A stretch of DNA of 64,000 nucleotides from Meghimatium bilineatum (Eukaryota > Mollusca > Gastropoda > Stylommatophora > Philomycidae). A program made the position numbers and the translations under genes. The stretch is taken from positions 52,768,456 to 52,832,455 of the forward strand of contig CM067322.1 in assembly GCA_034231615.1 (NCBI GenBank), read 5' to 3'. Positions within the stretch are counted from its first letter, which is position 1, and every line of letters begins with the position of its first letter. Shown in pieces: positions 3,550 through 61,952 of this stretch. Under the pieces are notes generated by a model. It was not told the DNA's origin and did no database searches. It saw only the letters and a list, made by a program, of their open reading frames with translations.

Positions 3550-3663
3550 CTATTCATATATATTAAGGCATAACTGTCTGAGGAGATTTGTTGGTATCTT
3601 CGCTGACATCGCCGAACTCATTCGATAATCTGAGAAAAGAAAAGTGATTTAAAGAACCTGTAA

Positions 3664-3916
3664 TATATCTATCAACATCATGGAATAACATACATCAAGA
3701 AACTGTTAATAAGATAGCGATGAACATCAAATAATAACAAACATCAAGAAACTGTGTAAGATATTGATCAAAATCACTGAATAACATACATCAAGAAACT
3801 GTAAAATATCGATGAACATCACTGAATAATATACATCAAGAAACTGTAAAATATCAATGAACACCACTGGCATATATCACCAAACTGTAAGCTTGTTGAA
3901 GATCACTGAATAAAAT
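3664..3916. repeat. minisatellite, about 45-bp unit, left half
   Basis: About five diverged units of roughly 45 bp contain CATCAAGAAACTGTAAAATA and ATCACTGAATAACATA. The array resumes after the LINE at 5661, so the LINE split it. Confidence 0.9.
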
Positions 3917-5660
3917 CATCAATGGTATGGGAGAGAAACTGTCACATCCTATTTCAAAGGCTCTTCATGCAGATGACTTTGCTGCCTGGAGTGCGGCAGA
4001 AAACAGAATGCAGACAGTACTTGACACATTAAGTGAATGGGCATCTGACAGGGGAGTCCAGATCAACCTCTCCAAAACGGTGACAACCATCTTCTCACTT
4101 TCAAACCACCAAGATAAAGCAGATCTTAAAATAAATGGAAGTGAGCTAGCACATGTGGAGAACCCTACATATCTAGGGGTCACACTAGACAAGCGACTCA
4201 CCTGGAAACCACACCTAATAACCACCGAGCAAAACGCAACCAGGAGGCTATCCTTGATGAAGAAACTTGCAGGAACAAGCTGGGGAGCAAATCGAAATAT
4301 TCTCCGAAATGTCTACATGGGTACAGTCAGACCTGTATTAGAATATGGAATGACAGCCTGGGCATCAGCATAAAAAAGCAAACACTAATCGCCTATCTAA
4401 AGTACAAAATGCAGGACTTCGACTTATCTCTGGGTGGATGAAAACCACTCCAATCCATGCAATGGAAAAATATGCCAACATCCGCCCACTGGATGACAGA
4501 AGAGAAGAAAGAGTGCTTGTTCAAAGGGAAAAAATTAAGCGCATGCTAAACCATCCGATGTATGCGCACATTTCTAGATCAACCACAAGCAGGTTAAAGA
4601 GAACCAGCTTCTGTCACATCTCTAAAGATATCCATGAACAACATAAAGAAATCCTCACAAACCTCCCAAATGAAATTGAAACACTAACGGACTTTGAAGA
4701 GCCAGGCAATAGTCTCCAGAATGTCTCCATAATAACACAGGTTCCTGGAATAATTAATAAGGCACACCAAACTCCACCTCAACTAAAAGCATTGACACTG
4801 GAGATATAGAAATAAAATACAATCCCAAGGATTGGACACATGTCTACACAGATGGATCGGCAGAAGGAGCAGTAAGGAATGAAGGAGGTGGAATTTTTAT
4901 AAGACTCAAAGATGGGACGACAATATTAAAAGCTTTTCCAACCGGGAAATACTCCTCTAATTTTAGAGCAGAAGCAGTTGCACTCCATCAAGCACTGAAA
5001 GCCTTCACTGAACCAGGACTGCCAAGACCAAAGAAGATATTCACAGATTGCAGATCCCTACTGGAATCAATCCAGAGCAACAGAAACGAAAGCCTTCTGT
5101 ACAACATCAGACATGGGCTAAGACAGATCCAAAAATCAACAGCTATTGCCCTTCAGTGGATACCATCACACTGTGGAATCATAGGAAATGAGAAAGCGGA
5201 TGCTCTGTCAAAGGCAGGAAGTAAAATGGAGCAACAAGACACCCACTGTCTTACGGAGAAGTAAAAACAATAATCCGCAACACATACTCAGCAAAGTGGA
5301 AGAAAGAAATGGAAGGGGAATACGAACATGATGCAATATATCTCCTCCAAAGATATCAACAGACCACAATATTTCGCCTTAGAACAGGCCACTGCAGACT
5401 GTTGGGTCACCTTTACCGATTAAGGATCTCATACACAGATGAATGTCCATGTGGATCCGGAACCCAGACTCCAGAACACATACTTCAGGACTGCCCAACA
5501 TACAAAGAGCAAAGACAGCAGACCTGGCCAGAGGATACAGACTTGAGGCAAAAGCTATGAGGCAGCCGCTCTGACCTGGAGAAGACAGTGGACTTCGTCT
5601 TGATGACAGGTCTGACGGTATAGCATGACCACGGATGCTGAACGCAGAAGAAGAAGAAGA
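3917..5660 (+). mobile_element. LINE-A (I group) with RNase H, 5'-truncated, TSD-bounded
   Basis: A 1744-bp non-LTR retrotransposon 3' part, flanked by ACTGAATAAAAT at 3905-3916 and 5661-5672. Coding starts at once inside the reverse transcriptase: LHADDFAAW is the catalytic ADD box, followed by YLGVTLDKRLTWKPHL and MKKLAGTSWGANRNILRNVY. After a stop near 4371 come the thumb and linker region. An uninterrupted RNase H domain (about 4831-5260) shows all four catalytic acids: YTDGS, AEAVALHQAL, FTDCRS and GNEKADALS, plus the PSHCG histidine. A Cys/His cluster (CPCGSG, then PEHILQDC) lies at 5440-5500. It ends in an AAG-repeat tail. A few stops and frameshifts make it inactive, but it is the best-preserved LINE protein in the window. 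Confidence 0.95.
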
Positions 5661-5862
5661 ACTGAATAAAATACAATATATGAAGAAACTGTGAGCAAGA
5701 TATCGATCAATATCAATAAATAACATACAAGCAATTGTCTATAAGATATCGATTATCAATAAATAACATACAAGTAATTGTCTATAAGATATCGATCATC
5801 AATAAATAACATACAAGCAATTGTCTATAAGATATCGATCATTATCAAGGAATAACATACAA
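5661..5862. repeat. minisatellite, about 43-bp unit, right half
   Basis: Four units containing AATAAATAACATACAAGCAA and TTGTCTATAAGATATCGAT. They are diverged relatives of the units at 3664-3916 and lie on the far side of the inserted LINE. Confidence 0.9.
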
Positions 5863-6904
5863 CAAATGACATACCCATAATTAATTACATTTTTTTCAGC
5901 AATAGGGTGATTGACAGTGCATCAGTCATGAAGACTGATGTCGACTATTTTCATCATATTTAGGAGACATTCTTACAGTTCCGTTTCTGATTATTCTGTA
6001 CTCTGAATCTCCTGAATTATCCATTCACCTGAATCTGTGCTCTATTTTGTCTTGATGACTTAACCGTTGCTGACATTTTCCGCCTTCAGTGGAAGGGATT
6101 GTTTAGTTACTTTCTCACAAAGGTTGCATGATAGCACGTTGCTATGGTTACCGAAGCTTACTAGCCTGTGGCTGGAGTTTCTATTGTTCTATTAATTTTC
6201 TTGTATTTCAAACATGGAGTATATTATTGATTGGGAGTATGAAAACCATTTGGTGCTACATTTAATAATGTTGGGAAAAATCGCAGTTTCGTCCGCGACT
6301 AATTGTTCCTCCTGTATTCAGTTGAATTGAAGCGCAGTTGATATTCCGCCTCAGAAAGTTTTCCCACTATTTGCCACATGTGGATGTGCCTGACTGGGTC
6401 TGTTCCTTTTTCTACTGGGTAATAACTGCTCGATCTACCGTAGAAAGTTCTAGTTGATTACGTTATCGATTTCTTGATGCAGAATACATAATTTATACGC
6501 CACAATAATTTCTACACGCAATAAGCCCCTACCATACTTGCAAGTTATGTGAAGCAATCATCTACTTTTTATTGTTGTGAGTCGAATGCAAGGTGGTAAT
6601 GTGAACACACAACTAGGACCCTCAATCACGTTACCGAAAAAGGGATGTGCTGAGTAGAAAGCGGAAAAATTGCATCTGCCATCTGTGCGTCAGACTGGCA
6701 ACACAGTGTAATTGCTATAAAATTGCTTAAATCAAATATAACGCGACTGAAGTAGTGAGAAGGCAGAAGAGCAAACAGAAGTAAGAATTGTGAACACATG
6801 TGCCCCTAGACCACAGATGGGATGTCAAATATTACACTTACATCTGCGATGTAATTTACAATTCTGCAAGTACGTAAATGGGATACAATTTATAATCACA
6901 CACT
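5863..6904. other. no gene seen
   Basis: AT-rich spacer. A small inverted repeat (GCATCAGTCATGAAGACTGATGTCG, arms CATCAGTC/GACTGATG) lies near 5921-5943. No reading frame or known element could be supported. Confidence 0.5.
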
Positions 6905-7365
6905 TAGGTAACAGTAAAAAGTAATGCCCTAATGTGTAATATACAATCAAGTAATGCCGTAAATTATGATTTACAATCAAGTAAGGCCGTAACTAATGTG
7001 AGGTTTAAATCAAAGAATAATAACAAAATTAAGGTTTAGAAACAATTGTTAACATAAGTATGGTTAAAATAAAATGTTATCATAAACCGTGAACTAGAAT
7101 CAAATGTTACAATAAGTGGTGAATTATAATCAAATGTTACAATACGCCGTGAATTAGAATCAAATGTTATAATAGGTGGTGAATTATAATCAAATGTTAC
7201 AATACGCCGTGAATTATAATCAAATGTTATTATAAGAGGTGAATTATAATCAAATGTTAACGTAATCGGTCAATTAGATTCTAATGTTACCGATATCCGC
7301 GAATTAGACTCAAATGTTACTGTAAGTCGTGAGTTAGAACCAAATACTGATGTAATCGAGAACCA
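6905..7365. repeat. minisatellite, about 30-bp unit
   Basis: About 15 units of AATCAAATGTTACAATACGC / CGTGAATTAT. The units are most alike at 7080-7260 and decay toward both ends, which suggests old flanks and a younger core. Confidence 0.9.
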
Positions 7366-19774: not shown

Positions 19775-19785
19775 AATCGTTTACC

Positions 19786-20983
19786 CAATCAATCAAAACA
19801 CCCAAATGGGCTTCCGTAACATCAAAAGCTGTACGGATACTATCTTTACACTTTGACAGCTAACAGAAAGAGCGACAGAAAGCAACAAAAAATTATACAT
19901 CGCATTAGTCGACCAAGAAAAAGTTTTCGACAGAGTAGACAGACAACAACTATGGAAACACTATCAATATACGGAGTACCAGAACATTTAATCAATATAT
20001 GCAAAGGCATTTATGCTAATAGCCAATGTGAAGTAAGAACAAATACAGGGGTGTCCAATAAGTTCTAAATTCAATCAGGAGTTCGCCAAGGATGTGTCCT
20101 ATCCCCTCTACATTTTATAACATATATCGACCTCATCTGTAAAATAACAAGTACCAACGAAGAAGATAACATAAAAGACAAGTTGAACGAACTACTCTTT
20201 GCAGATGACCAAGTACTAATAGCGACATCAGAAGAACAATTGCAAGACCATATGAACATACTCCTCACAACATGCAAAAATTCAACATGATGATTAATAT
20301 TGAAAAGACCGAAATAATGGCAATAGCAAAGAAAGAAAGATATATACCTATCTCCATCGATGATAAACATCTTAAACGGGTAAATGAATTCACGTAACTT
20401 AGGAAGCATTATATCGAGTTAACGGAAAACAGTAAAGATATACAAAATAGATGCAACAAAACATACCAGATACTAGGACAGATGACATGTACTATCAAGA
20501 ACAAAAATGTAAACGTAGACACTAAAGTTGCATTATACAAGACTATTATTATTCCATCACTTTGTTACCACTGCCAAACCTGGTCAATGACAGCTCAAGA
20601 CAAAAGAAAAATAGTGACAACAGAAATGACATGTCTACGAAAACTACTCGGAGTGCCATTAAGAAATAGAATTAGAAACGATAACATCAGAAAGATAACC
20701 AAAACAATACCAGTATTGGAACACATCAAAAGACAACAGATAAAGTTGTTTTCACACGCTTCTAGGCTACCAACAGATGGCATGCCACAAATGGCCATGA
20801 CACATAGACATAACGGCTATAAAGTCAGATGCAGACCATGTAAAAGATGGATCATAGAAATCAAAGAAACCACAGGAACAAGCTTACAAAAAGCACACAA
20901 GAAGGCTATCTCCAGAGAACTGTTTTACCCCTGACGCCGCAAGGCAAACAAGGGCCACAGAGTATAGATAGATAGATAAATAG
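19786..20983 (+). mobile_element. LINE-B with GATA tail, TSD-bounded
   Basis: A 1198-bp insertion flanked by AATCGTTTACC at 19775-19785 and 20984-20994. The RT is readable through frame changes: IALVDQEKVFDRVDRQQLW, IYGVPEHLINICKGIYANSQ, SGVRQGCVLSPLHFITYIDL and the catalytic box NELLFADDQVLIATSEEQ, then ADDL-downstream KTEIMAIAKK. The thumb and C-terminal region follow at 20482-20934 (PSLCYHCQTWSMTAQDKRK, PLRNRIRNDNIRKITK). The end is a GATAGATAGATA tail. Stops and frameshifts make it inactive. It is 5'-truncated within the RT, with no endonuclease. Confidence 0.95.
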
Positions 20984-20994
20984 AATCGTTTACC

Positions 20995-25735: not shown

Positions 25736-25824
25736 TGAATGCCTGGAGTTTCCTTTCACACTTTGAACATATTTGGCATTATTCTGTGATCTAGACTCTT
25801 GTTTGTCTTCTTGTTCGTGTTATT

Positions 25825-27797
25825 CATTCATTCATTTTCCTTTTGCGATGAAGTTAGCGCATAGGGCAGAGGTCAGATCTCTCCAATTCTGTCTGTTCAA
25901 AGCTATTCTGTGCAGTTTTTGAATAGTATGAATATTGGTTGTTTTACTTTCTTTAAGTATTGTTCTTCTGAGTGTTTCTTTTGGTCTACCCCTTGCTCTT
26001 TTGCCTGCAGGTATCCATTAAAGAGATTGGTCGTGTATTCTGTTGGTGTCTGCGCGTGTGACATGCCCGATGTAGGACCAACGGCGATTTCTGATAACAT
26101 CTGTGATGAAATTTTGACGTGTCTCTTCTCTGATTTTATCATTCGATTTGAATTCACTGGAATAGGTGTTAGTTATCCTACGAAGACATTTGTTCTCGAA
26201 ACTCAGTAATTTCTTTTCTGAAGATAAAAGCTTTTCCAGCTCTCACATCCATATGATAGCACCAGAAAAACGCAGGAATAAAATAAGCGTATTTTCGTGC
26301 GTGTGCTGATTGACTTTGACTTCCAGATATTAGACAGTCTGTTAAATGCACTTGATGCTAGGGCAATGCGAGTTATAATTTCTGGCATGACATCACCATC
26401 GAGTGTTAATTTGCTTCCTAGATAGGAGAATTTCTGTACTTTTTCAAGTTGTTGCCCATTTAAAGTAATTTCGTTAGGTGAATTGGTGAAGTCCATAATT
26501 TTTGTTTTTGCTGAATTGATTTGGAGACCTATTTGTCCTGAAATGAGTTTTAATCTATCAGTAATTGTTTGTGCATCTTGATGGTTTTCACTCAATAGTG
26601 CAAGATCATCGGCAAAATCCAGGTCTTCTAATGTTGTTTTATTTATCCATTTGATTCCTAAATTTGTGTTGGATGTGCTTTTTCTCATAGCCCAGTCAAT
26701 TGCGATATTGAATAGTAATGGTGACATAGGGCAGCCTTGTTTAACACCAGTAATCACAGGGAACCATTCTGAATTGCCTTTTTCTGTTCTAACACAGCAT
26801 TTTGAGTTGGTATAGAATGATTTTATCACATTTATATATTTATTTTGGAATCCATATATTTTTAAAATTTCCCAAAGCGATGGTCGATGGATGCTGTCGA
26901 AGGCTTTTTGAAAATCAACGTAGTTTATTATGAGATTAGATCTAAATTCTAGACATTCTTCTATTATTGTTCCTAGGGTGAATATATGGTCAAGGCAGGA
27001 ACGACCTGGTCTAAAGCCTGACTGCTCTTCTCTAACTCTTTTGTCTAAGGATGATTTTAATCTTGCAAGCATCATATTACAAAGAATTTTGCCAGGTACG
27101 GATAGCAGTGTGATTCCCCTCCAGTTATCACAATTTGTTAGGTCTCCTTTTTTTGGTAATTTGATAATGATGCCATTTTTCCATTGTTGGGGGTGGGAAT
27201 TCGTTTTTCCAAATCATATTGAAAATATTCAGTAAAAATGACAAGGTATTATCATTTGCTGCTTTTAACATTTCACTTGTGATGTCATCTTGGCCTGCTG
27301 CTTTATTGTTTTTTAATTTCTTAATGGTTTGTTTTACCTCTTCAAGGGTGAAATTTTCTATCGAAGCTTCTAGTGGTGGCATTGTCTCCTCTTTCTCTAG
27401 ATTTGGAGTAGATTGGGGTGGTGGTCTGTTAAGAAGATCTTGGAAATGTTTAGCACATCTTTGCTTTTGTTGTTCAGTTGTTGTTAGAACTTTGCCATTT
27501 TTGTCTTTAATAGATGCGTTGGGGATAAGTGGCTGATTTCACAGTTGTTTGGTTATGTGGTGTAGTATCTTGCTGTTGTTGTGAGACTGATTCAGCTTCC
27601 AATGATAAGTTGTTTATATAATTCTGCCTGTTCTTTCTAGCGCTTGCTTTAACTTCTTTGTCTAAAAGTGCGTATGTGAGTCTGTTTTGTTCCTCGTCTT
27701 GAGTGGTTTTTGCAGCAAGTATTTTTTGCTTCATCTTTTTACGGTTTTGGATTTTTGACCAAGTCTTCTCGCTTATCCATTTCTTCTTATTGTTTTT
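25825..27797 (-). mobile_element. RTE-type LINE with TSD
   Basis: A 1973-bp insertion flanked by TTCGTGTTATT at 25814-25824 and 27798-27808. Minus-strand order: an N-terminal Lys-rich stretch (QKILAAKTTQDEEQNRLTYA), then ASIENFTLEEVKQTIKKLKN and AAGQDDITSEMLK (27370-27230), the start of the RT. Next come EEQSGFRPGRSCLDHIF, VDFQKAFDSIHRPSLW, TGVKQGCPMSPLLFNIAIDW and the catalytic DLDFADDLALLSENHQDA. These sit in one 290-codon frame at 26203-27075. The C-terminal WRR-type segment and basic motif continue in another frame to about 25900. The tail is short ATGA repeats. The endonuclease is absent (5' truncation). The FRPGRSCLDHI and CPMSPLLFNIAIDW motifs fit the RTE clade. Confidence 0.95.
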
Positions 27798-27808
27798 TTC
27801 GTGTTATT

Positions 27809-29173: not shown

Positions 29174-29187
29174 AACTTGACTGAATA

Positions 29188-29654
29188 AAAACAACAAAAC
29201 AGAAATGAAAGTGCTAATGTTACGAACTTTTATTTTTCCGGTTGCAACATACGGCTGTGAAACATGGACCCTAAGTAAAACAGCGGCAAAAAAGATCAAC
29301 GCCTTCGAGCTGAAATGCTACAGAAAGATACTTAGAATATCGTGGAAGGAAAAACAATCAGAAACTCAGTTAATATTATAAACACATTGAAGATTCCAGA
29401 GTGTTGGTTACTGAACACAATAACAAAAAGAAAACAACGCCTGTTTGGTCATATAAAGAGACACAACTGTTTAGAAAGACAAATAATGGAGGGAAGAGTA
29501 CATGGGAAGAGGAGAAAGCGCAGACCAAGAAGACGATGGACTGACGACATTAAAGATAACATGAATACATCGCTAGAAAATGCAAGCCACATCGCCCAAG
29601 ACAGAGAGAGGTTCAGAGAGTTCATTGGGAAGACAAAGGAATACGTCACATAAC
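29188..29654 (+). mobile_element. LINE-E 3' end, inserted in LINE-C
   Basis: A 467-bp insertion flanked by AACTTGACTGAATA at 29174-29187 and 29655-29668. It encodes the RT C-terminal part: FPVATYGCETWTLSKTAAKK, FELKCYRKILRISWKEKQ, the WGH-type motif LFGHIKRHNCLERQIMEGRV, RRPRRRWTDDIKDNMNTSLE and the terminal SHIAQDRERFREFI. A one-base shift lies near 29370. The ending matches the minus-strand copy at 53640-54032. Confidence 0.95.
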
Positions 29655-29668
29655 AACTTGACTGAATA

Positions 29669-30837: not shown

Positions 30838-31112
30838 GTCTTCTTCTTCTGCATTCGTTCTCAAACTCCAGCAGATTAGCAGGATGTAGTCCGGAGAACG
30901 GAATGCGTTGTGTCATGGTTTACAGCATTGCTGCGATATCTGCGCCTTTCGGCTCGACACATCCGACTTCAGCATGGCTTTGGGTCACTGACCCTATAAT
31001 GGGATGGGACAGCCAACTCTATCCATAACCTCCTTAATCGCCTTTTACGACATGCGTGGAAGGTAAACAGTGTTGCTATTCTTTGCTCCCCTTTCGGGCA
31101 CGGCAACACACG
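30838..31112 (-). mobile_element. SINE3, longest copy
   Basis: Read on the minus strand: GTGCCCGAAAGGGGAGCAAA, GCATGTCGTAAAAGGCGATT AAGGAGGT, GGCTGTCCCATCCCATTATA, GCTGAAGTCGGATGTGTCGA, CGAAAGGCGCAGATATCGCA, TGTAAACCATGACACAACGC, TTCTCCGGACTACATCCTGC and a final GAACGAATGCAGAAGAAGAA. No clear tRNA boxes are visible, so its head origin is unknown. Its 3' end resembles that of the I-group LINE, as expected for a SINE mobilised by that LINE. Confidence 0.85.
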
Positions 31113-39274: not shown

Positions 39275-40585
39275 TGTCAGGGCAACGAAAAGGAAGTAAA
39301 CAACGAAGTAGATGGACACAGCATATCAAATACTGAAACTAAAAAGATCACAAATTGAAGACATCATAAGGTAATTAAGTAAAAGAAAACTGGCTAAACA
39401 ACAAGGTTTTCTCTAGAGTCTAGTACATCTAGTAAAATCTAGTAGAATCTAGTAAAATCTAGTAGAATCTGGTACATCTAGTAAAATCTAGTAAATCTAG
39501 TAGAATCTAGTAGAATCTAGTACATCTAGTAAAATCTAGTAGAATCTAGTAAAATCTAGTAGAATCTAGTACATCTAGTAAAATCTAGTAGAATCTAGTA
39601 GAATCTAGTAGAATCTAGTACATCTAGTAAAATCTAGTAAATCTAGTAGAATCTAGTAGAATCTAGTACATCTAGTAAAATCTAGTAAATCTAGTAGAAT
39701 CTGGTACATCTAGTAAAATCTAGTAAATCTAGTAGAATCTGGTACATCTAGCGATTATGCTAGATGTACCAGATTCTACTAGATGTAGGACACTACTAGA
39801 TTTTTTTAGATGTACTAGATTTTACTAGATGTACTATATTCAAGATTCTATTACTATATACTAGATTCTATTAGGTGTACTAGATTCTAGATGTACTAGA
39901 TTCTACTATATGTACTTGATTATGCTAGATGTACTAGATTCTACTTGGTGTACTAGATTCTATATGTACTAGATTCTATTAGATGTACTAGATTATGGTA
40001 AATGTACCAGATTCTACTAGATGTACTAGATTCTACTAGGTGTGATATATTATAGATGTACCAGATTCTACTAGATGTACTAGATTCTACTTGGTGTACT
40101 AGATTCTAGATGTACTAGATTCTAGATGTACTAGATTCTACTAGATGTGCTAGATTCTAGATGTACCAGATTCTATTAGATGTACTAGATTCTACTAGGT
40201 GTGATAGATTCTACTTGGTGTACTAGATTCTAGATGTACTATATTCTACTAGATGTGCTAGATTCTAGATGTACCAGATTCTATTAGATGTACTAGATTC
40301 TATTAGATGTACCAGATTCTATTAGATGTACTAGATTATGGTAGATGTACCAGATTCTACTAGATGTACTAGATTCTACTAGATGTGATAGATTCTAGAT
40401 GTACTAGATTCTACTAGATATACTTAGATTCTAGATGTACTAGACTCTAGAAACCTTCTTGTTTAGCCAGTTTTCTTTTACTTAGTTATCTTATGATGTC
40501 TTCAATTTGCGATCGTTTTAGTTTCAGTATTTGATATGTTGTGTCCATCTACTTCGTTGTTTACTTCCTTTTCGTACCCTGACAT
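39275..40585. repeat. 1.3-kb foldback palindrome with tandem-repeat arms
   Basis: The outer arms 39275-39420 and 40440-40585 are near-perfect inverted copies (for example AGTAGATGGACACAGCATAT against its complement). Inside, 39415-39751 is a tandem array of about 10-21 bp (AATCTAGTACATCTAGTAGA) in one orientation. 39760-40450 is the same array inverted and longer. The centre is CGATTATG at 39752-39759, with perfect 21-bp inverted arms on either side. The outer arms encode a worn LINE C-terminal piece (SRWTQHIKY). Confidence 0.95.
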
Positions 40586-45600: not shown

Positions 45601-46329
45601 GAAACGAGAATGTGTTTAACTGTGTGCCTCTTTTAAATTGCTAAACCGAGACTTAGACCCGTCTGCCGTGCTGGTAGTCCGACAAAACTTATATTTCAAG
45701 ACGGAATAAAAACAGGACTGAACACCCTTCAAAGATAAAAAGTTAAAAATGGTGGATACACGATGACGGCGAAAGAAGTTATGTGTGAGACAGTGGACAG
45801 TTCACTGTCCTATGGTAGCCACTGTTTTTCTTCAATTTTAAATAAGGAACCATGAGTTAAAGGACATAAAATAATAAGGTCATCAAAAGGTAGTTTCAGA
45901 ACGGACTTAAAGGATGACAGATGTTTTCAGGATAGTTCTTAGCGATGAAATTACATAAAATTAGTCAGGAAACAGCGAACTAAAGTGTTGATGTAGCGGA
46001 CGCTCACCTCCGGACAGATACTACCCTGACATAGGGAAATGAGAAAGAAAGAAATGATAATTATCACTTGCGACAGATGGCAAGTCCTGATTTTCTAAAT
46101 TACACCCTTGACTGCCTCTTCCTGTTTGTCCAACTCAACCGTTTTGCTTTTCAGAAATCACATTAGGCATTTGTATTTTGCCATGGTTCTATCAGTCGCA
46201 CCACTAAAACTATTTCTTCCATTATTTTCTCATGTCAGAGCCATATTAAAAGAAAAGTTTATGTCCGTTGTAACAATTGTAGCAGTAGTACAACATGTTT
46301 TAGTAACATTTATAACATTTTTTACATTT
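45601..46329. other. no gene seen
   Basis: CTATGGTAGCCACTGT at 45813-45828 recurs at 51579-51594, with related flanks, so a diverged dispersed repeat is likely. Confidence 0.45.
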
Positions 46330-46525
46330 ATAGTAATAATTGTTTATTGTAATATTTATAGCATTATTTCATTTATAGCAATAGTTGCTTTTTGTAACAT
46401 TTATAGTATTCTTATAGTTATATAAATAGTTGCATGTGGTAACATTTATGTAATTATTTAATTATAACAATTGATGTTTATTGTAATGTTTATATCATTC
46501 TTATATTTATAAAAATAGTTTAACA
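46330..46525. repeat. degenerate AT-rich tandem repeat, about 45 bp
   Basis: Four diverged units of TTTATTGTAATATTTATAGC ATTATTTCATTTATA. The hydrophobic frame at 46108-46425 is a by-product of this composition. Confidence 0.75.
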
Positions 46526-47264
46526 GCAATTTAATAGCATCGATTATACAGAATATATAGAGAAAGAAAGACTTCGTATTGGAAACATCAATTACGCCAT
46601 GAATAGAGTTCTAAACCAGTTTTTGTAAACAATTGTTTGCTTACCCCTGTGGAGAAAAAAAGAAGAAAAAAACTTCTCTTATTACAACGATGATTTATTT
46701 TTTATATTTTATAATATACAAGGAATCATTAAAACCGCACTAAAAGAATGACATATTTTCATCCTTGAATTATTTATTTCATTGAGCGATTTTCAAACCA
46801 CGTGAATGTGTACTGGGTAACTTTATGTTTTCACGTTTTATTGTCGTTATGTTTTATTCCAATTCATGTTTCACGTACAAAACATAAAATTGCTGAATTA
46901 TGGTCATATTATTATTCGAATCAAGTTAAATTTGGCATACACAATAGTAAAGTTTCAGGGAATTTTTTTCCATCGCAATGTTTTTGTTTTTATCAAAAGG
47001 AAGTGTGTTTTTGTGTTTGTTATTTTCGTCACAAAAGCAGTGGCACGTTGTTGGTATGGTGACCAGAAAAGTTGCCAGACATTTTAATTGTGATGATTCC
47101 ACTATAGTGAGGATGAATGAGAGATTTCTGGCTACACGTACAACCAATGACAGTCCAATGCCTGTAGCTCAATTGTTATTAAGTGTGTTATATTAACGCC
47201 TGTTATTAAATGTGTCTCCGATTATTAGCAAAATTTTATTACCCTATTCCTGGATCTACCTGTA
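46526..47264. other. no gene seen
   Basis: AT-rich. Overlapping frames on both strands at 46802-47196 are not supported as genes. Confidence 0.5.
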
Positions 47265-47565
47265 TAATACCTTGCACATATTACATAGAGAGGCAGCAGA
47301 TAAAGTGGTTTGGCCACATTATAAGAATGCATCAGGACAAGTTACCCGTACAGGCATATAACCAAATTAGATCAGGGTACAAAGCCAGAGGAAGACTATG
47401 GAAAAGATGGATAGAAAACGTCAGGAACATCATTAACAAACACAGTCATATCACAGCCAAGGCCACACACCTGCCTTGGAACACAAGATCGAGCTCCGAT
47501 CACCCCTACTCTTAACGGAAAGAGTGGATAACAAACCACCTGGGGAAAGACAATAGACAAAAAAA
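47265..47565 (+). mobile_element. LINE-B-like 3' end
   Basis: The frame at 47210-47515 contains RQQIKWFGHIIRMHQDKLPV, YKARGRLWKRWIENVRNIIN and AKATHLPWNTRSS. The first motif is the usual WxGHxxRM of LINE C-termini. The ending resembles the LPSTP closing motif of the LINE-B group. Confidence 0.85.
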
Positions 47566-48034
47566 TGTTTGCAGTGCTTTCATGTTTCTTCTACGAAGTC
47601 ACATCTTGGTAGTCCCCCCCCCCCCAATAAACTGTGTTTACTTTCCAGGCCATTCATTCGTGAACTGGCTTGCTAGTCAGGTGAGTCAAGGTAAAATTTC
47701 CAGTTCAGACGGAAATATTTAGAATCACTAAGGCTCATATATTAACCCAGCCAAGGATAATAGGAACCAAATCTTTTGGGACAGTAAAGGCAGCATAGAT
47801 GATATTGATTGATTAGAGCACCCATAATTACGATGTTGATCAATGAATAATACGAGTCTAACACCGTATTCCCAAATTTCATTATTATTAATTTAAAAAA
47901 AATGGGTAACTCATTTTATGTTGGTCGTTTTTGTCACAATTGTGTCTTCAAAACTTATAAAAGTGGCAACTCTCAATTTACGTCGGGCCCTTTTTTATCG
48001 CAATAGTGTCTTAATAAATTATAGAACTGACGAC

Positions 48035-48069
<35 letters not shown>

Positions 48070-48344
48070 ACATTTATCCCGTAGCATTTATGTTTCTATG
48101 CATACAAGTTATCAGAGGGAACTGGATAGCTAGCGTAAACCTACCTTAATCATTGGCAGATACAGTCTACGCGCCAAATTAACAAAATATATTACATAAT
48201 CCTTGTAGAGATTAAATGGGGAAAAATATTCAGAATGTCTTGGATGTAATGATTCAGAACAGTGCAGCCATCATATTAGAATGAAACTAAATCTAATATA
48301 ACATTCTTCTCTAACCGTGTGTTGCCGGGGCCCACAACTTTAGA
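47566..48344. other. no gene seen; (TC)n microsatellite 48031-48064
   Basis: Contains a C homopolymer near 47617 and a CT dinucleotide repeat of about 16 units. No coding signal. Confidence 0.7.
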
Positions 48345-48545
48345 ACAGAATGTGACTATGTGAACCGATTGACGGGGTTGTCTATGACATCCCATTGTGT
48401 GTCCAAGTGACAAGAAGCCATGATGAAGTCTGCTGTGTTGAATCCAAAGTTACAGACAACGCAGCTAAGCTGTAAACCATGACGCCGAACATTCTGTTTT
48501 CTGGAATACATCACGATAATCTGCATGAGTTTGAAAATTAACTCA
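48345..48545 (+). mobile_element. SINE3 copy
   Basis: Shares CATCCCATTGTGTG, ATGATGAAGTCTGCTGTG, ACAACGCAGCTAAGCTGTAA ACCATGAC and TTTTCTGGAATACATC with SINE3, in sense orientation. Confidence 0.7.
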
Positions 48546-48764
48546 GAAGATTAAGAAACATGGTTTTTGTTGCATCATTAGAAAATCTTGCCAGTGAATA
48601 CCAGCATTGAAAAGATACAATGAACAGGAATAGAAAACATTACTACAGCAGAAACTCACATGACACTATACAATGCTTGTTCATCATCAACAGTTGGAAA
48701 ACAACCTGTTGATGGTATATAGCATCACTGTGAAAATCATTATAACAGAAAATACTACTTAGAT

Positions 48765-48970
48765 CAGGGCTAGTCAACTATATTTACTCGGGGGCCAAAA
48801 TATAGAAAATGGGGATCATCATGGGCCAGATGTATAATAAACACATTGAATGTTTTTATACATTTATTTTTTTATAACTTTATTTCACTGTTTTAGAAAT
48901 GATCCGCGGGTCACTTACTAGGCCTCCGCGGGCCGGATTTGGCCCACGGGCCACCAATTGAATAGCCCTG
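48765..48970. mobile_element. hAT-type MITE, 206 bp, perfect 8-bp TSD
   Basis: Terminal inverted repeats CAGGGCTAGTCAACTA and CAGGGCTATTCAATTG (from the right end, complemented) with internal GGGCCA/TGGCCC blocks, and exact 8-bp TSDs ACTTAGAT at 48757-48764 and 48971-48978. The CAGGG termini and 8-bp TSD are hallmarks of the hAT superfamily. No coding capacity. The centre is AT-rich. Confidence 0.95.
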
Positions 48971-49006
48971 ACTTAGATGATCACCATAGTAGAGATTATA
49001 TAGTTA

Positions 49007-49088
49007 ACATCATGATTTAATCATTGCCATTACCATATTTTATTCGCAGTGTTCTGCATTTTGTTCTTGGTAAAGGCATTTAGCTAGA
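49007..49088. repeat. 82-bp direct repeat, left copy
   Basis: Matches 49819-49900 over 82 bp with three differences. The LINE lies exactly between the two copies. Confidence 0.97.
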
Positions 49089-49818
49089 CCACCTAAGCAT
49101 AATAGACACAGCAGGCAAGCAATTTGGAATGAAAATCAACATAGACAAAACAGAAGTAATGAATATTGCAAGAGAAAAGGAGAACATCAACATACAGATA
49201 AATAATAAACAACTAAAACAAGTAGATGAATTCAAATATCTGGGCAGCACATTGAGATATGACAACAAACAAGAAGCAGAAATAAACGCAAGATGTAATA
49301 AGGCCTGTCAGATCATTGGTCAATTAACACCTTTACTAAGAAACAAAGATATTACACTAGAAACAAAGAAAGCTCTTTTCAAAACCATTTTCTTACCAAC
49401 ATTGTGTTATCAGTGTCAAACTTGGACATTAGATTCTAGAACAATACATAAGATTAACACCACTGAAATGAAATGTGTGAGACGTATGATTGGAGTTAGC
49501 TTGAGAGACAAAATCAGGAATGAAGCACTAAGGAAACAATTAGGGATCAAACCAACAATAGAATACATACAGAAACAAGAAGTTAAATGGTACGGCCACA
49601 TAACCAGAAAGAGCAAAGTATTATCCAAAAAACACTTAACAAACGATACGAAAACAGGAGACCTATTGGACGCCCTTGTAAAAGGTGGATAGATAGTGTA
49701 TTAGAGACACTCGGAAATATAACAGCAGAGGAGGCAAATAGAAGGGCAAAAGACCGTACACTCACTCTCCCCTCAACACCGAAAGGTACATGAGGACAGA
49801 AAGAAGAAGAAGAAGAAG
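49089..49818 (+). mobile_element. LINE-B, 5'-truncated, bounded by 82-bp direct repeats
   Basis: A 730-bp insertion. Coding begins at once (HLSIIDTAGKQFGMKINIDK). One 187-codon frame holds the RT C-terminal part: DEFKYLGSTLRYDNKQEAE, LPTLCYQCQTWTLDSRTIHK, MKCVRRMIGVSLRDKIRN, then QEVKWYGHITRKSK. A frameshift near 49620 moves to RYENRRPIGRPCKRWIDSVL and the closing AKDRTLTLPSTPKGT. The tail is AGAAAGAAGAAGAAGAAG. It is well preserved, so relatively young. Confidence 0.97.
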
Positions 49819-49900
49819 ACATCATGATTTAATCATTGCCATTACCGTCTTTTATTCGCAGTGTTCTGCATTTTGTTCTTGGTAAAGACATTTAGCTAGA
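49819..49900. repeat. 82-bp direct repeat, right copy
   Basis: Second copy of 49007-49088, starting directly after the LINE tail. Interpreted as a very long TSD. Confidence 0.97.
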
Positions 49901-50039
49901 AACGTGGAATTGTGTATGTTTTCCTATGTATTTTCATTGAATAAGTAATACTTTGTGACATTATTTTCAATTCTCACTGTTGGATTAGTTTTGTAGAATT
50001 CGTAATATATTATCGATAATCTCTATATTGTGATCTTCT

Positions 50040-50455
50040 CTGTACCGATATGAATCTTTGATGTGCTGATCTTCTCTGCACTGATCTGTGTGATATGAAT
50101 CTTTGTTGTGCTGATCTTCTCTGTACTTATCTGTGTGATATGAATCTTTGTTGTAGTGATCTTCTCTGTACTTATCTGTGTGATATGAATCTTTGTTGTA
50201 CTGATCTCTGTTCTTATCTGTGTGATATGAATCTTTGTTGTGCTGATCTTCTCTGTACTTATCTGTGTGATATGAATCTTTGTTGTGCTGATCTTCTCTG
50301 TACTTATCTGTGTGATATGAATCTTTGTTGTAGTGATCTTCTCTGTACTTATCTGTGTGATATGAATCTTTGTTGTACTGATCTCTGTTCTTATCTGTGT
50401 GATATGAATCTTTGTTGTACTGATCTTCGCAATTATCTTCTTGATATGATTCAGT
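50040..50455. repeat. minisatellite, 45-bp unit
   Basis: Nine units: GATATGAATCTTTGTTGTGC, TGATCTTCTCTGTACTTATC, TGTGT. Some units are 3 bp shorter, so the 124-codon frame through it stays open. Read as protein it is a 15-residue repeat (MNLCCADLLCTYLCD). No evidence of expression. Confidence 0.97.
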
Positions 50456-50704
50456 ATACTATATTTTGATTAATTAAAATGTACCTCTCATGGTTAGGTA
50501 TACTTCTTTCAACCGAGTACGGTACTCCAATTTGGTTATATAAGAGCTATACAAACATAAAAATTATGTGTGTGTGTGTGGAGGGGAGGGGTCGCGGTTA
50601 TGGTAATCCAGCCACCACGACCTTCGAAATATGTTGCGGTAATCTGTGTAATCGTGATTTTCTACTTTTTAAAATGTATAATGGATAGACGTCTAAGTAT
50701 AATT

Positions 50705-50996
50705 ATTCTACATAATGATATAGTTAACTGCTCGCTAACAATGATACATAATGATACAGTTAACTGCTCGCTAACAATGATACATAATGATACAGTTAAC
50801 TGCTCGCTAACAATGATACATATTGATATAATTAATTGCTCGCTAACAATGATACATAATGATACAGTTAACTGCTCGCTAACATTGATACATAATGATA
50901 TAATTAATTGCTCGCTAACAATGATACATAATGATACAGTTAACTGCTCGCTAACAATGATACATAATGATACAGTTAACTGCTCGCTAACAATGT
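50705..50996. repeat. minisatellite, 36-bp unit
   Basis: Eight units: TAATGATACAGTTAACTGCT, CGCTAACAATGATACA. Two subtypes alternate (ACAGTTAACTG and ATAATTAATTG). Frames are open on both strands because the unit is a multiple of three. Confidence 0.97.
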
Positions 50997-51769
50997 TAAA
51001 ACTTTGGTTGAACATTCAAGATAAACTCCACTTGTTACTCTTGCCGCTAATGTGCATAGGAACTCTAACAGTTTACGGAAGTTAAACGCTAGACACCTTT
51101 GTCCGCTAGACGTGTTTGAGTTTTTCTATGCGACTGCAAGGGAGATGACACGTTGAAGCCCCATTGTCTTCTATTAAGGGGAGAAAAATAGTTCACACAA
51201 TTTAGATCAAACATAAACACCTTTGTGACATGTAACGCTTTAGTTTAAACATGTCCTGCTTTACAATACTTAAAGTGTAATAAAGGATATGGTCTGTGAC
51301 GAACCAATACAAGACTTCGATTTTACCATCAGCATACAGGAAGTAGTCTTCTGAGCAGACGAGAAAATACTTTAAAACTCAGCGGGTATTTTCGCTGCAA
51401 GGATCTAAGAAAAAAGAGGAAGTATACTGTGGAACATGGCATTAACAACTTAATGGATCAAGGAAGATGATGAAGTGGTCTGAGAGAAGAATTAAGATGT
51501 GCGATACTTCACTCTCAAAGCTGAAAGCGTAATGGACTTTCTGAGACAGTGTTACTTCTGTTCTCTAACAACTATGGTAGCCACTGTGATTTGATTGGTG
51601 AACTTGACTGTCAATCATTCAATCCAAAGTTTCAATCAATGTCTGAATGGGTAAAAATTAATGATTTATGAGATATCTACTTTTCTTCAATTTTTGTAAT
51701 AAAGATCAGAATAAAAAGAATAACTCTCAAGCGTTGTTTCAAAATTGCGGTTCCTGCTTCATATGTGTT
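50997..51769. other. no gene seen
   Basis: Spacer. Shares CTATGGTAGCCACTGT with 45813. Confidence 0.5.
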
Positions 51770-51945
51770 GATGGGGCCTGAAGAGAGAGTAACATTACTG
51801 TGAGCTGCCATTCATGTTGGAAGCGACGACTAAGGATATTTTAGGAGTGAAGTTATCTTTCCTATCCCATAGTTCAAAGTGACTCAAACGCAATGCTGAT
51901 GTCGGATGTACGGTCATTTCATGAACCAAGGGCAGGGTATGTCTT
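51770..51945 (+). mobile_element. SINE3, strongly diverged
   Basis: Contains GGAAGCGACGACTAAGGATA, TATCCCATAG, GACTCAAACGCAATGCTGAT GTCGGATGT in the SINE3 order. No tail. Confidence 0.5.
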
Positions 51946-52444
51946 CAGTAACAAAAAAAAGAGAGAGGCGGTGGAGGTTACCTAAAAGAAGGTCATTCGT
52001 CCATTTTCATTGCAAATCCATCGTTTTCATTCGATTTTTGACGCCTTTTTTGTGTGAAGAAAATTGTTAAACGGGGTATCCTCCCCCATTTATCTAATGG
52101 ATTGACTGGACAATGTTTCTTCCGTGACCTTACTGAAACGTAAACAAAATCTTATTTTCTTCAAGTCATGTTGTTATATATTAAAGATATTTTTGAAATA
52201 ATGACATTACCGTGCTACCAGACATGTTATATATTTAAGATATCCTTGAAATAGTAAGCTACCCGTGATATTATATATTAAAATATTGTTCAAATAGCGA
52301 CCTTCCCATGTTAACAAACATGTTATGTATTAAGATATATTTGGAACAACGATATTTCTTTTACAGCCCCCCCCCAGGCAGATCTGGGATACCCTAATTT
52401 TCACATTGTTTTCCCCAGACCACTTTGTGAATCTCAGTGTGTTT
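51946..52444. other. no gene seen; degenerate tandem repeat 52160-52345
   Basis: About four diverged units of roughly 60 bp with TGTTATATATTAAGATAT. A C run lies near 52367. Confidence 0.6.
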
Positions 52445-56530: not shown

Positions 56531-57235
56531 ATATTCTATTCTATTCTATTCTATTCTATTCTATTCTATTCTATTCTATTCTATTCTATTCTATTCTATT
56601 CTATTCTATTCTATTCTATTCTATTCTATTCTATTCTATGTCTTTTTTCTGCTTTTGCTATAAGGCGTCGCAGGACTGAATGACGATAAATTTTCTGGCT
56701 ATGGCACGTTTGGTGGCTTGATATTCAATAATATTATTACGTCTCAGAACGTAGGTACCTCCTTCAGTCCACCTTCGTCTTGGTCTTTCTCTGTATTTTA
56801 CTGTTTCCATTTTCATGTTGTATGCTTTGTCGCCGGTCACTAAGCATTAATTCTCAATAAGTGGCAAAACTATTTCAGTTTTTAGTTTATGCTTTTCAAT
56901 ATATTGACTACATATGTTGTTCTAACAGTTCTTGTAATCTCTGACTTCCTCACATGGTTTCTTCTTGTTTTGTTTGCTGCTTTTCTTAGACATCTTATTT
57001 CACACGTAGTTTATTTTCTCTCTTATTATTTTGATAGTCTTCATGTCTGACATTGATAACATATTGTTGGTAAGAAGATTGAGTTTATGATTTTTTGGTT
57101 TCCATCAGGATAGATTTTAAAAAGTGGCTAAGTTTCATAATTTACGTAGTTAGAATTTTTAATTCTTGTTAGCATTTTGAGCATTTTGTCTGGAGCTCTC
57201 TGTCCTCCAGTCGTCTGTAAAAATACGCCCATAAT
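56531..57235 (-). mobile_element. LINE-B-like 3' part with a long (AATAG)n tail
   Basis: Minus strand encodes KAYNMKMETVKYRERPRRRW and EYQATKRAIARKFIVIQSCD, matching the end of the LINE at 41560-42660 (AYNMKM, YQATRRAIAHKPIVIQPC). Upstream pieces (56830-57100) match in broken frames. The CTATT run at 56533-56638 is, on the element strand, (AATAG) repeated about 21 times directly after the 3' end, so I read the microsatellite as the LINE tail. Confidence 0.85.
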
Positions 57236-57242
57236 ATTACAT

Positions 57243-58615
57243 TTTTTGCATTAGATAACTTAATTTCAGCACTATTTGAGATTGAATAACTTAATTTCAG
57301 CACTATTTGAGATTGAATAACTTAATTTCAGCAGTATTTGAGATTGAATAACTTAATTTCAGCACTATTTGAGATTGAATAACTTAATTTCAGCACTATT
57401 TGAGATTGAATAACTTAATTTCAGCACTATTTGAGATTGAATAACTTAATTTCAGCACTATTTGAGATTGAATAACTTAATTTCAGCACTATTTGAGATT
57501 GGATAGCTTAATTTCAGCACTATTTGAGATTGGATAACTTAATTTCAGCACTATTTGAGATTGGATAACTTAATTTCAGCACTATTTGAGATTGTATAAC
57601 TTAATTTCAGCACTATTTGAGATTGGATAACTTAATTTCAGCACTATTTGAGATTGGATTACTTAATTTCAGCACTATTTGAGATTGAATAACTTAATTT
57701 CAGCACTATTTGAGATTGGATAACTTAATTTCAGCACTATTTGAGATTGGATAAGTTAATTTCAGCAGTATTTGAGATTGGATAACTTAATTTCAGCACT
57801 ATTTGAGATTGGATAACTTAATTTCAGCAGTATTTGAGATTGGATAACTTAATTTCAGCACTATTTGAGATTGGATAACTTAATTTCAGCAGTATTTGAG
57901 ATTGGATAACTTAATTTCAGCACTATTTGAGATTGGATAACTTAATTTCAGCACTAATTGAGATTGGATAACTTAATTTCAGCACTATTTGAGATTGGAT
58001 AACTTAATTTCAGCACTATTTGAGATTGAATAACTTAATTTCAGCACTATTTGAGATTGAATAACTTAATTTCAGCACTATTTGAGATTGGATAACTTAA
58101 TTTTAGCACTATTTGAGATTGGATAACTTAATTTCAGCACTATTTGAGATTGAATAACTTAATTTCAGCACTATTTGAGATTGAATAACTTAATTTCAGC
58201 ACTATTTGAGATTTAATAACTTAATTTCAGCACTATTTGAGATTGGATAACTTAATTTCAGCACTATTTGAGATTTGATAACTTAATGTCAGCACTATTT
58301 GAGATTGAATAACTTAATTTCAGCACTATTTGAGATTGAATAACTTAATTTCAGCACTATTTGAGATTGAATAACTTAATTTCAGCACTATTTGAGATTG
58401 GATAACTTAATTTCAGCACTATTTGAGATTTGATAACTTAATGTCAGCACTATTTGAGATTGAATAACTTAATTTCAGCACTATTTGAGATTGGATAACT
58501 TAATTTCAGCACTATTTGAGATTGGATAACTTAATTTCAGCAGTATTTGAGATTGGATAACTTAATTTCAGCACTATTTGAGATTGGATAACTTAATTTC
58601 AGCACTATTTGAGAT
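57243..58615. repeat. minisatellite/satellite-like array, 31-bp unit, about 44 copies
   Basis: Unit TAACTTAATTTCAGCACTAT TTGAGATTGGA. It is very homogeneous, with recurrent single-base variants (GAATAAC/GGATAAC, CAGTATT) and a repeated block pattern. It begins directly at the 5' end of the LINE at 56531-57235. The largest array here. Confidence 0.99.
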
Positions 58616-58799
58616 TGAAATTCACTGAACGAATGGGTATTACAGAGACTGAATGAATTGAAGATCAAGAGTGCATGGAAAATTAGCGCACAACGGGAAC
58701 GATAAGCATACATACTCTTCACCATCTGCGAAAAGTAACTGAGCACCTATGTGTATTCCCGGAGTTTAGTTACATTAGTTTTTACATAATTAAATACTT

Positions 58800-60663: not shown

Positions 60664-61952
60664 CAGTGCCGTCTTTACACCATTTAGGGCCCCTGGGCAA
60701 AGAAATATTGTTGGGCCCCTGGGCAAAGAAAGAGTGCCCCCCTCCCGCAGGAATAACAAATAAATGGTTGATAATATTAAAAATAATGTATTATTTATTT
60801 TATTGTCACTATACTCATTTCAACCAAATTGTTGTTAAAACATGCTGTACAGCTGCAACTATAATCAACATTAAACATGAAAAACAGAGAGAAGAGATTT
60901 TATTTACATGTTTTATAGTATTACATATGATATTTGCAAAAACAAAAAAATTTACACACAAAAACAGATATTTACATATGTTTTTTAAATAATAAGCGCC
61001 ATAAGATATTACATCTATTACACAAGGTCAAATAAAGGTATTAAAATTCGTAATAAAAAAAATTTCTGAAATTAGACAAATTTCAGTACGGTACTTTATT
61101 ATAACAAGCGTTTGCGACATTTCTTTTTAGAAAATTGTTTTATTATCGGCTTGAAGTCAATGGTCTTTAGGGTGTCATTTTCTATGCCCATGAGTGATAG
61201 CCAGTTCAAACGATGCTGTCCCATTGTACTACGAAGCTGATTTTTTATAAGTTTACGTTTTGAAAAAGAACGTTCTCCTGTACAATTGCTCACCATCATG
61301 CACATGAACACTCTGAGTGCAATTTCAATGTTCGGAAAAACAGATTTTAAATTGTCCGAAATTATTTTTCTGTACAATGCAGGTAGAGTCTCGCAATTTT
61401 CATCAAGAGCCATGTAATGCTTGAGATGCTCACATTCATTTAAAAGGTGGTCATAACTCAAGTCCTTGTGGTACGTATTGGCAAGATGTTCGCTTTTTTT
61501 TCTTTAGTGCATCAGAAGTAATGGTTTTTAATTCACCCAAGAAAGAAAACAGATTTCCAATTTGTGAATACGCCTCTGCACGTCTTATTAGTTCAATGAT
61601 TAAAGTGTCCAGAATAGGGAGGAAAGTTTCTACCTTGCACTTTTCGGACTTAATTAGAAGTAACTCTTCTCCTGGCCTATCATATCTACTAAAACGCACA
61701 CTTCGGGTTCGTTCCCGTTTTTTTTCCATCACTGTAATCGGCATCTGGACACATACTTCTGGCTTTGAATTCATATTCAATGAAAAACTTAAAGGGCCCG
61801 TTCGCATATAAACACAAAATTATGAGAATTTTATAAAATAATACTAAATTTTATACGGGTTTTCCAAAACCCTACAAAATATTCGCACGGGGCCCCTATG
61901 CTCGTGGGCCCCGGGCAAATGCCCAACGGGCCTATGGGTTAAGACGGCATTG
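60664..61952 (-). mobile_element. hAT transposon, 1289 bp, perfect 8-bp TSD
   Basis: The left end CAGTGCCGTCTTTACACC and the complemented right end CAATGCCGTCTTAACCCA are terminal inverted repeats, followed on both sides by GGGCCCC/GGGCAAA blocks. Exact TSDs ATCTCACT lie at 60656-60663 and 61953-61960. The element carries the C-terminal part of a hAT transposase on the minus strand. It has interrupted a segment that reads continuously across the join and contains a hammerhead-like motif at 62035-62059. Confidence 0.97.
61099..61807 (-). pseudogene. hAT transposase C-terminal part, frameshifted
   Basis: Two overlapping minus frames encode one protein end. The first (61807-61451) has CKVETFLPILDTLIIELIRR and AYSQIGNLFSFLGELKTITS, which in ZMYM1-like hAT transposases lies before the dimerisation domain. 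The second (61461-61099) has CTGERSFSKRKLIKNQLRST and GQHRLNWLSLMGIENDTLKT, the conserved hAT dimerisation motif. The frames part near an 8-A run at 61494-61501 (minus strand), so one homopolymer indel probably broke the gene. The zinc finger and the catalytic core upstream are missing, so the element was internally deleted as well and could move only with help from another copy. Confidence 0.93.

Follow-up and report, generated by a model that had tools for sequence, protein, structure and literature searches.

The lengths of the TSDs that accompany LINE insertions peak at 13-15 bp in the L1 clade and at 10-12 bp in the RTE clade, and LINE TSDs of more than 20 bp form a recognised class, designated L-TSD (PMC4245944). 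L1 TSDs are reported to reach several hundred nucleotides (PMC1291365), and among 25 inserts of ZfL2-2 in wild-type DT40 cells there was a single long TSD, of 1228 bp (PMC2666801). In HeLa cells, no more than 10% of the events had TSDs of more than 100 bp, compared with 4/7 in XPA-, 21/23 in XPC- and 22/28 in XPD-deficient cells, and the authors suggest that an unrelated nick at a more distal position was used (PMC5223499). TSDs of extreme length at truncated L1 elements in HeLa cells have also been considered a peculiarity of this cell line, and the 5'-truncated L1 elements of human genomes were found to be enriched for short TSDs in the studied range of 5-30 bp (PMC2912911). Truncated RTE elements with simple-repeat tails are described as common in Lepidoptera, with TSDs of 6-12 bp and one example of 20 bp (PMC2887409). 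A stagger of 126 bp is given for R9, and the second half of LINE integration is characterized as very poorly understood (PMC6895275).

With a probability that we put at roughly 0.9, the locus described here represents the insertion of a 5'-truncated LINE, with an 82-bp TSD on either side. Since rare long TSDs are documented for L1 and L2, the kind of event is already known, and the locus is a further case of a known, uncommon outcome of LINE insertion, which makes it less striking than it first seemed. With the L1 and L2 inserts that carry L-TSDs the locus shares a truncated, tailed 3' fragment of a LINE, a flush repeat far above the usual length and the status of a minority event, but it belongs to another family, arose naturally and not in cell culture, and is known here from the filled site alone. 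Like the rotifer element R9, it represents a non-LTR element with a very long stagger; unlike R9, which is rDNA-specific, it stands out singly from a family whose TSDs are short. The original study of R9 reportedly presents, in its title, an exceptionally long TSD as generated on insertion. From the RTE elements of Lepidoptera, with their TSDs of 6-12 bp and the one of 20 bp, the locus, whose family is a candidate member of the RTE clade, differs by its 82 bp.

An 82-bp direct repeat flush with both ends of a truncated LINE

A repeat search and pairwise comparison in the window, i.e. the whole stretch of 64,000 nucleotides that was analysed, yielded two 82-bp direct repeats on the plus strand, the left (5') copy at 49007..49088 and the right (3') copy at 49819..49900. 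The original prediction of flanking copies with three differences was confirmed, as the copies are identical at 79 of 82 positions in an ungapped alignment (BLAST E = 5e-35), with mismatches at positions 29 (A/G), 31 (A/C) and 70 (G/A). The left copy lies between ...TATAGTTA upstream and the LINE (CCACCTAAGC) downstream, and the right copy between (AAG)n upstream and AACGTGGAAT downstream. Because the neighbours differ on both sides, the repeat identity ends at both junctions, and the direct repeats are accordingly flush with both ends of the LINE. A third copy of the 82-mer was absent from the window at a BLAST threshold of E 1e-3, and a search of the 1.61-Gb source genome, in which the best candidates alone were scored and very common words were skipped, returned two matches, both flanking this LINE. 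Within the reach of that search, the 82-bp unit is thus confined to the locus. Moreover, no trace of the 82-mer was detected in 300 bp on either side and on both strands, where the local-alignment score was matched by 113-286 of 300 shuffles in four comparisons, nor in the flanks plus the insert, where the observed score was reached by 28-286 of 300 shuffles in six comparisons.

The LINE fragment between the repeats comprises 730 bp on the plus strand (49089..49818). It consists of a C-terminal part of the reverse transcriptase (RT) with 200 open codons (49090..49689) and a weak Pfam RVT_1 match of its own, the remaining C-terminus in the next frame (49659..49793), which is separated from the preceding part by a frameshift and encodes the last 44 residues (49659-49790) before the stop codon at 49791-49793, and a 3' UTR of 25 bp (49794..49818) ending in an (AAG)6 tail (49801-49818). 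The insert begins inside the RT frame and is therefore 5'-truncated; the boundaries proposed originally hold on the left, where the repeat adjoins the LINE, and on the right at the AAG tail, but the left one does not coincide with the first coding base, as had been stated. With regard to the original description of the LINE as among the best-preserved copies, its best single frame has three stops in 701 bp, compared with 12 in 1175 bp, four in 467 bp and nine in 1064 bp in the window fragments A, E and B, while fragment C retains an open frame of 336 residues.

The Pfam matches of the fragment alone, to RVT_1 (E 1.9e-3) and RNA_pol_RpbG (4.2e-3), were both below the cut-off, searches of PDB and NCBIfam with it gave no match, and a comparison of the fragment with viral contigs produced three pattern stretches of which none was confirmed. 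Rfam likewise gave no match in the region 46000-52000 of the window. The assignment to the LINEs comes from a longer family copy, L025, with an open frame of 529 residues that specifies an RVT_1 domain (2e-43) and matches the solved L1 ORF2p (1e-22) and R2 proteins (3e-21), and accordingly a LINE-type reverse transcriptase.

A first look at the genome (1.61 Gb, 32 contigs) provided 2023 candidate relatives of the insert, and the 40 of these that were scored, including the query copy itself, have an identity of 98-100% along almost the entire insert. The closest of them show 98-99% identity and mostly span 731-735 bp, so that the 730-bp copy is a few bases shorter, and the first 12 relatives retrieved are 98.2-98.5% identical to the insert with gaps counted. 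Tails of the (AAG)n type are common to the relatives. At the truncation point, all ten relatives compared there share the sequence AAGACC; the 82-bp locus has TAGA|CC at its junction, which leaves a microhomology of 3 nt (AGA) at the 5' junction. The 82-bp copies differ by 3.7% (3/82; 95% interval 0.8-10.3%), a value that is compatible with, without proving, the same age as that of a LINE about 98% identical to its relatives; the divergence of the repeats and the identity of the insert would both fit one fairly recent event.

With respect to its classification, the family shows what we take to be a resemblance to RTE elements. The distance from stop to end is 25 bp with (AAG)6 right after the RT ORF, and the median TSD of the family, 11 bp, falls on the RTE peak of 10-12 bp, a trait that is typical and not strictly defining. 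Median and short tailed 3' UTR would accord with a candidate assignment to the RTE clade.

The neighbourhood contains further elements. A small non-autonomous hAT-like element is located at 48765-48970, within 48757-48978, with near-matching ends (CAGGGCTA...TAGCCCTG) and an 8-bp TSD (ACTTAGAT) on each side, and the window also codes for a hAT dimerisation domain (61099-61503). The two members of a dispersed repeat pair (48388-48556 / 30839-31006) lie in opposite orientation and share 75% identity along 170 bp. Minisatellites are numerous in the window (for instance at 57250-58617, 39753-40449 and 50047-50428), one example comprising 44 copies of a 31-bp unit. Additionally, a perfect (TATTC)21.6 microsatellite (56532-56639) extends directly from the tail of a minus-strand LINE fragment and may have been seeded by that tail.

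TSD lengths in the family and in the window

Thirty-five of the 39 other scored copies were examined. The 5' end lies inside the retrieved stretch, at differing points of truncation, in 24 of them, and the remaining 11, which extend past it, were dropped from the TSD count; since the copies were picked by score over the whole 730 bp, shorter truncations are unrepresented. One method applied to all copies yielded flush or near-flush repeats of 8-17 bp, with a median of 11 bp, in 19 of the 24 truncated relatives, several of which have the 5' repeat copy 2-22 nt ahead of the aligned start. A junction repeat score of at least 8 was obtained for 21 of the 24, compared with 4 of 600 pairings with swapped flanks. 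In this null, which was built from 25 copies including a site with an A/T run, the best near-flush score was 2-9 in 599 pairings and 17 in one. Not counted among the 19 were L029, with a 43-bp repeat of 81% identity that leaves a gap of 9 nt to the 5' junction, as well as L034, with an A/T run at the junctions; three relatives (L033, L046 and L048) scored below 8 with nothing convincing. A clean repeat of more than 20 bp was found in none of the 24, whereas the query locus reached a near-flush score of 73 with its 82 bp by the same method. With TSDs of 8-17 bp in these 19 relatives, the 82 bp of the query exceed what is usual in the family by about sevenfold and make the locus an outlier. A further truncated family copy, taken from a 200-kb sample and located about 220 kb away, is 94.7% identical over its main part and has a TSD of 12 bp. 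The family-wide TSD lengths to which the original prediction had pointed as a check are thus short in 19 of 24 relatives and in this nearby copy. Since the locus was chosen for its length, it gives no unbiased rate; the sole rate information is the count of zero clear long TSDs in 24 other copies.

Some copies lie at other repeats. L024 is positioned by a 43-bp array and L042 inside a 39-bp array; at L029, a 98%-identical family copy, the two units of the 43-bp repeat are close to the ends of the element, the one at the 5' end not being flush, and a tandem array was not called there. The nearby LINE copy is broken by a nested insert of about 460 bp (L006, about bases 6759-7220; C25, about 52595214-52595675) that appears, by eye, to have similar direct repeats of about 80 bp at both ends (AATTCTTGAGACTAAC...).

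Likely TSDs of 11, 11, 12 and 14 bp were recognised at four of nine other LINE fragments examined in the window, in agreement with the 10-14 bp given originally, and no convincing TSD was found at fragments B, D, F, G and H. Fragment E (29188..29654, plus strand) belongs to another family, has no visible simple-repeat tail and is flanked by AACTTGACTGAATA (14 bp; 29174-29187 / 29655-29668). Fragment A (19786..20983, plus strand; 44% amino acid identity) ends in an (ATAG)n tail, its likely TSD being AATCGTTTACC (11 bp; 19775-19785 / 20984-20994). The likely TSD of fragment C (25825..27797, minus strand), which has a (GAAT)n tail, is AATAACACGAA (11 bp; 27798-27808 / 25814-25824), and that of fragment I (3917..5660, plus strand), of the RNase H type with a AGAAGAAG tail, is ACTGAATAAAAT (12 bp; 3905-3916 / 5661-5672). 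In 60 trials with fake ends, a narrower search than the TSD scan, scores ranged from 6 to 12 and were at least 11 in two. Because this null reaches 11-12, none of the fragments A, C and I is more than marginal on its own, and E with 14 is the only one above all 60 trials. The RNase H-type LINE lies between arrays of 45 and 43 bp (3652-3869 and 5697-5862), fragment C had no counterpart in the viral contigs, and a further LINE-like stretch is present at 296-460.

Explanations of the 82-bp repeats

The TSD reading gained support from the genome matches of the 82-mer, the microhomology at the truncation point and the TSD count of the relatives. According to the original prediction, the combination of uniformly short TSDs in the family with a repetition of the 82-bp unit elsewhere would speak against it; the former was observed and the latter was not, so that this combination does not apply. 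The accompanying conditional claim, that an 82-bp TSD points to nicks far apart or to unusual repair, is supported, as the unit was not found elsewhere in the genome within the reach of the search and 19 of the 24 relatives have short TSDs. Counted against a TSD are the 24 relatives, in which a long stagger is not habitual, and the enrichment of human truncated L1 elements for short, not long, TSDs in the data cited above (PMC2912911).

It is very unlikely that the 82-bp unit had already been duplicated in tandem and that the LINE later entered exactly at the junction of the units. The window is rich in minisatellites, a 45-bp array starts at 50047, only 147 bp to the right, and at least two relatives (L042 and L024) lie in or beside tandem arrays; the 43-bp repeat at L029 is, with 81% identity, too diverged for the TSD of a 98% copy, so that older repeats beside insertions do occur. 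Yet a LINE that entered a two-unit array with the usual TSD of 8-17 bp would split one unit and be flanked by a flush repeat of that length, as in L042 with its 11 bp; for the observed arrangement, entry would have to be blunt and fall precisely where two 82-bp units meet, and no third or partial copy of the unit was detected in the 300-bp flanks or, within the reach of the search, in the genome. The flush repeats of L042, inside its 39-bp array, and of L024, adjoining its 43-bp array, measure just 11 bp, as expected if pre-existing repeats alone do not yield long flush copies.

An endonuclease-independent insertion, in which LINE cDNA patched a double-strand break with complementary overhangs of about 82 nt, would likewise produce a long flush duplication, and the junction TAGTTA|ACATCA was seen by eye to differ from an L1-like TT|AAAA site. 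Endonuclease-independent inserts are usually devoid of a tail, however, and the 3' end, which is complete and abuts the junction with its (AAG)6, resembles that of ordinary relatives, which renders this course highly improbable. The region is also repeat-rich, as would suit an assembly artefact, but a missed overlap would place 82-mers in tandem instead of astride a LINE and the two copies differ at three sites, so that an artefact is hardly credible.

Inferred course of the insertion and its significance

For an otherwise ordinary, target-primed LINE insertion with an 82-bp TSD we infer the following positions and order of events. The endonuclease would nick the bottom strand at 49006/49007 (TTA|ACA), a site compared by eye with the nick signature of Bov-B-type elements (PMC13295347), and reverse transcription of the RNA would start at this nick from its (AAG)n 3' end and halt after about 730 nt. 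The top strand would then be cut about 82 nt downstream, compared with the usual 8-17 nt of the family, the cDNA end would be joined there through the microhomology of about 3 nt (AGA), and filling-in of the single-stranded stretches would generate the 82-bp duplication. The likeliest source of the distant second cut is a nick or break that was stray or made by the host, and not a cut measured by the element itself.

It is less probable by far, and in our view very improbable, that the stagger was measured on folded DNA, an extruded hairpin or cruciform between the nicks having lengthened a normal stagger to a duplication of 82 bp. The target strand of 82 nt, folded as DNA, reached -11.2 kcal/mol (z -3.6), a value attained by none of 200 shuffles, and its two hairpins leave 5 + 10 = 15 nt unpaired, within the usual 8-17, so that an extruded fold could explain the 82 bp. 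Among 3,933 other 82-mers of the window, chosen so as not to overlap the locus, 2.6% have a fold of at least equal quality, which in 1.4% is combined with at most 15 outer unpaired bases; the fold of the right copy is poorer (-8.1, 33 unpaired), and that of the stretch at 48651 is better, with 6 unpaired. This weak hint is post hoc, as the idea was conceived after the fold had been seen. In the papers that one search on TSDs, hairpins or cruciforms and second-strand cleavage by non-LTR elements brought up, the idea is absent from the titles and the openings of the abstracts.

Although one locus alone alters no current view, it provides a clean natural example of a distant second-strand cut beyond mammalian L1 and cell culture, in the setting of a young LINE family in which the spacing is regularly short in the other copies. 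Counting such outliers across the genome could reveal how frequently this spacing fails and whether folding of the target strand plays any role.
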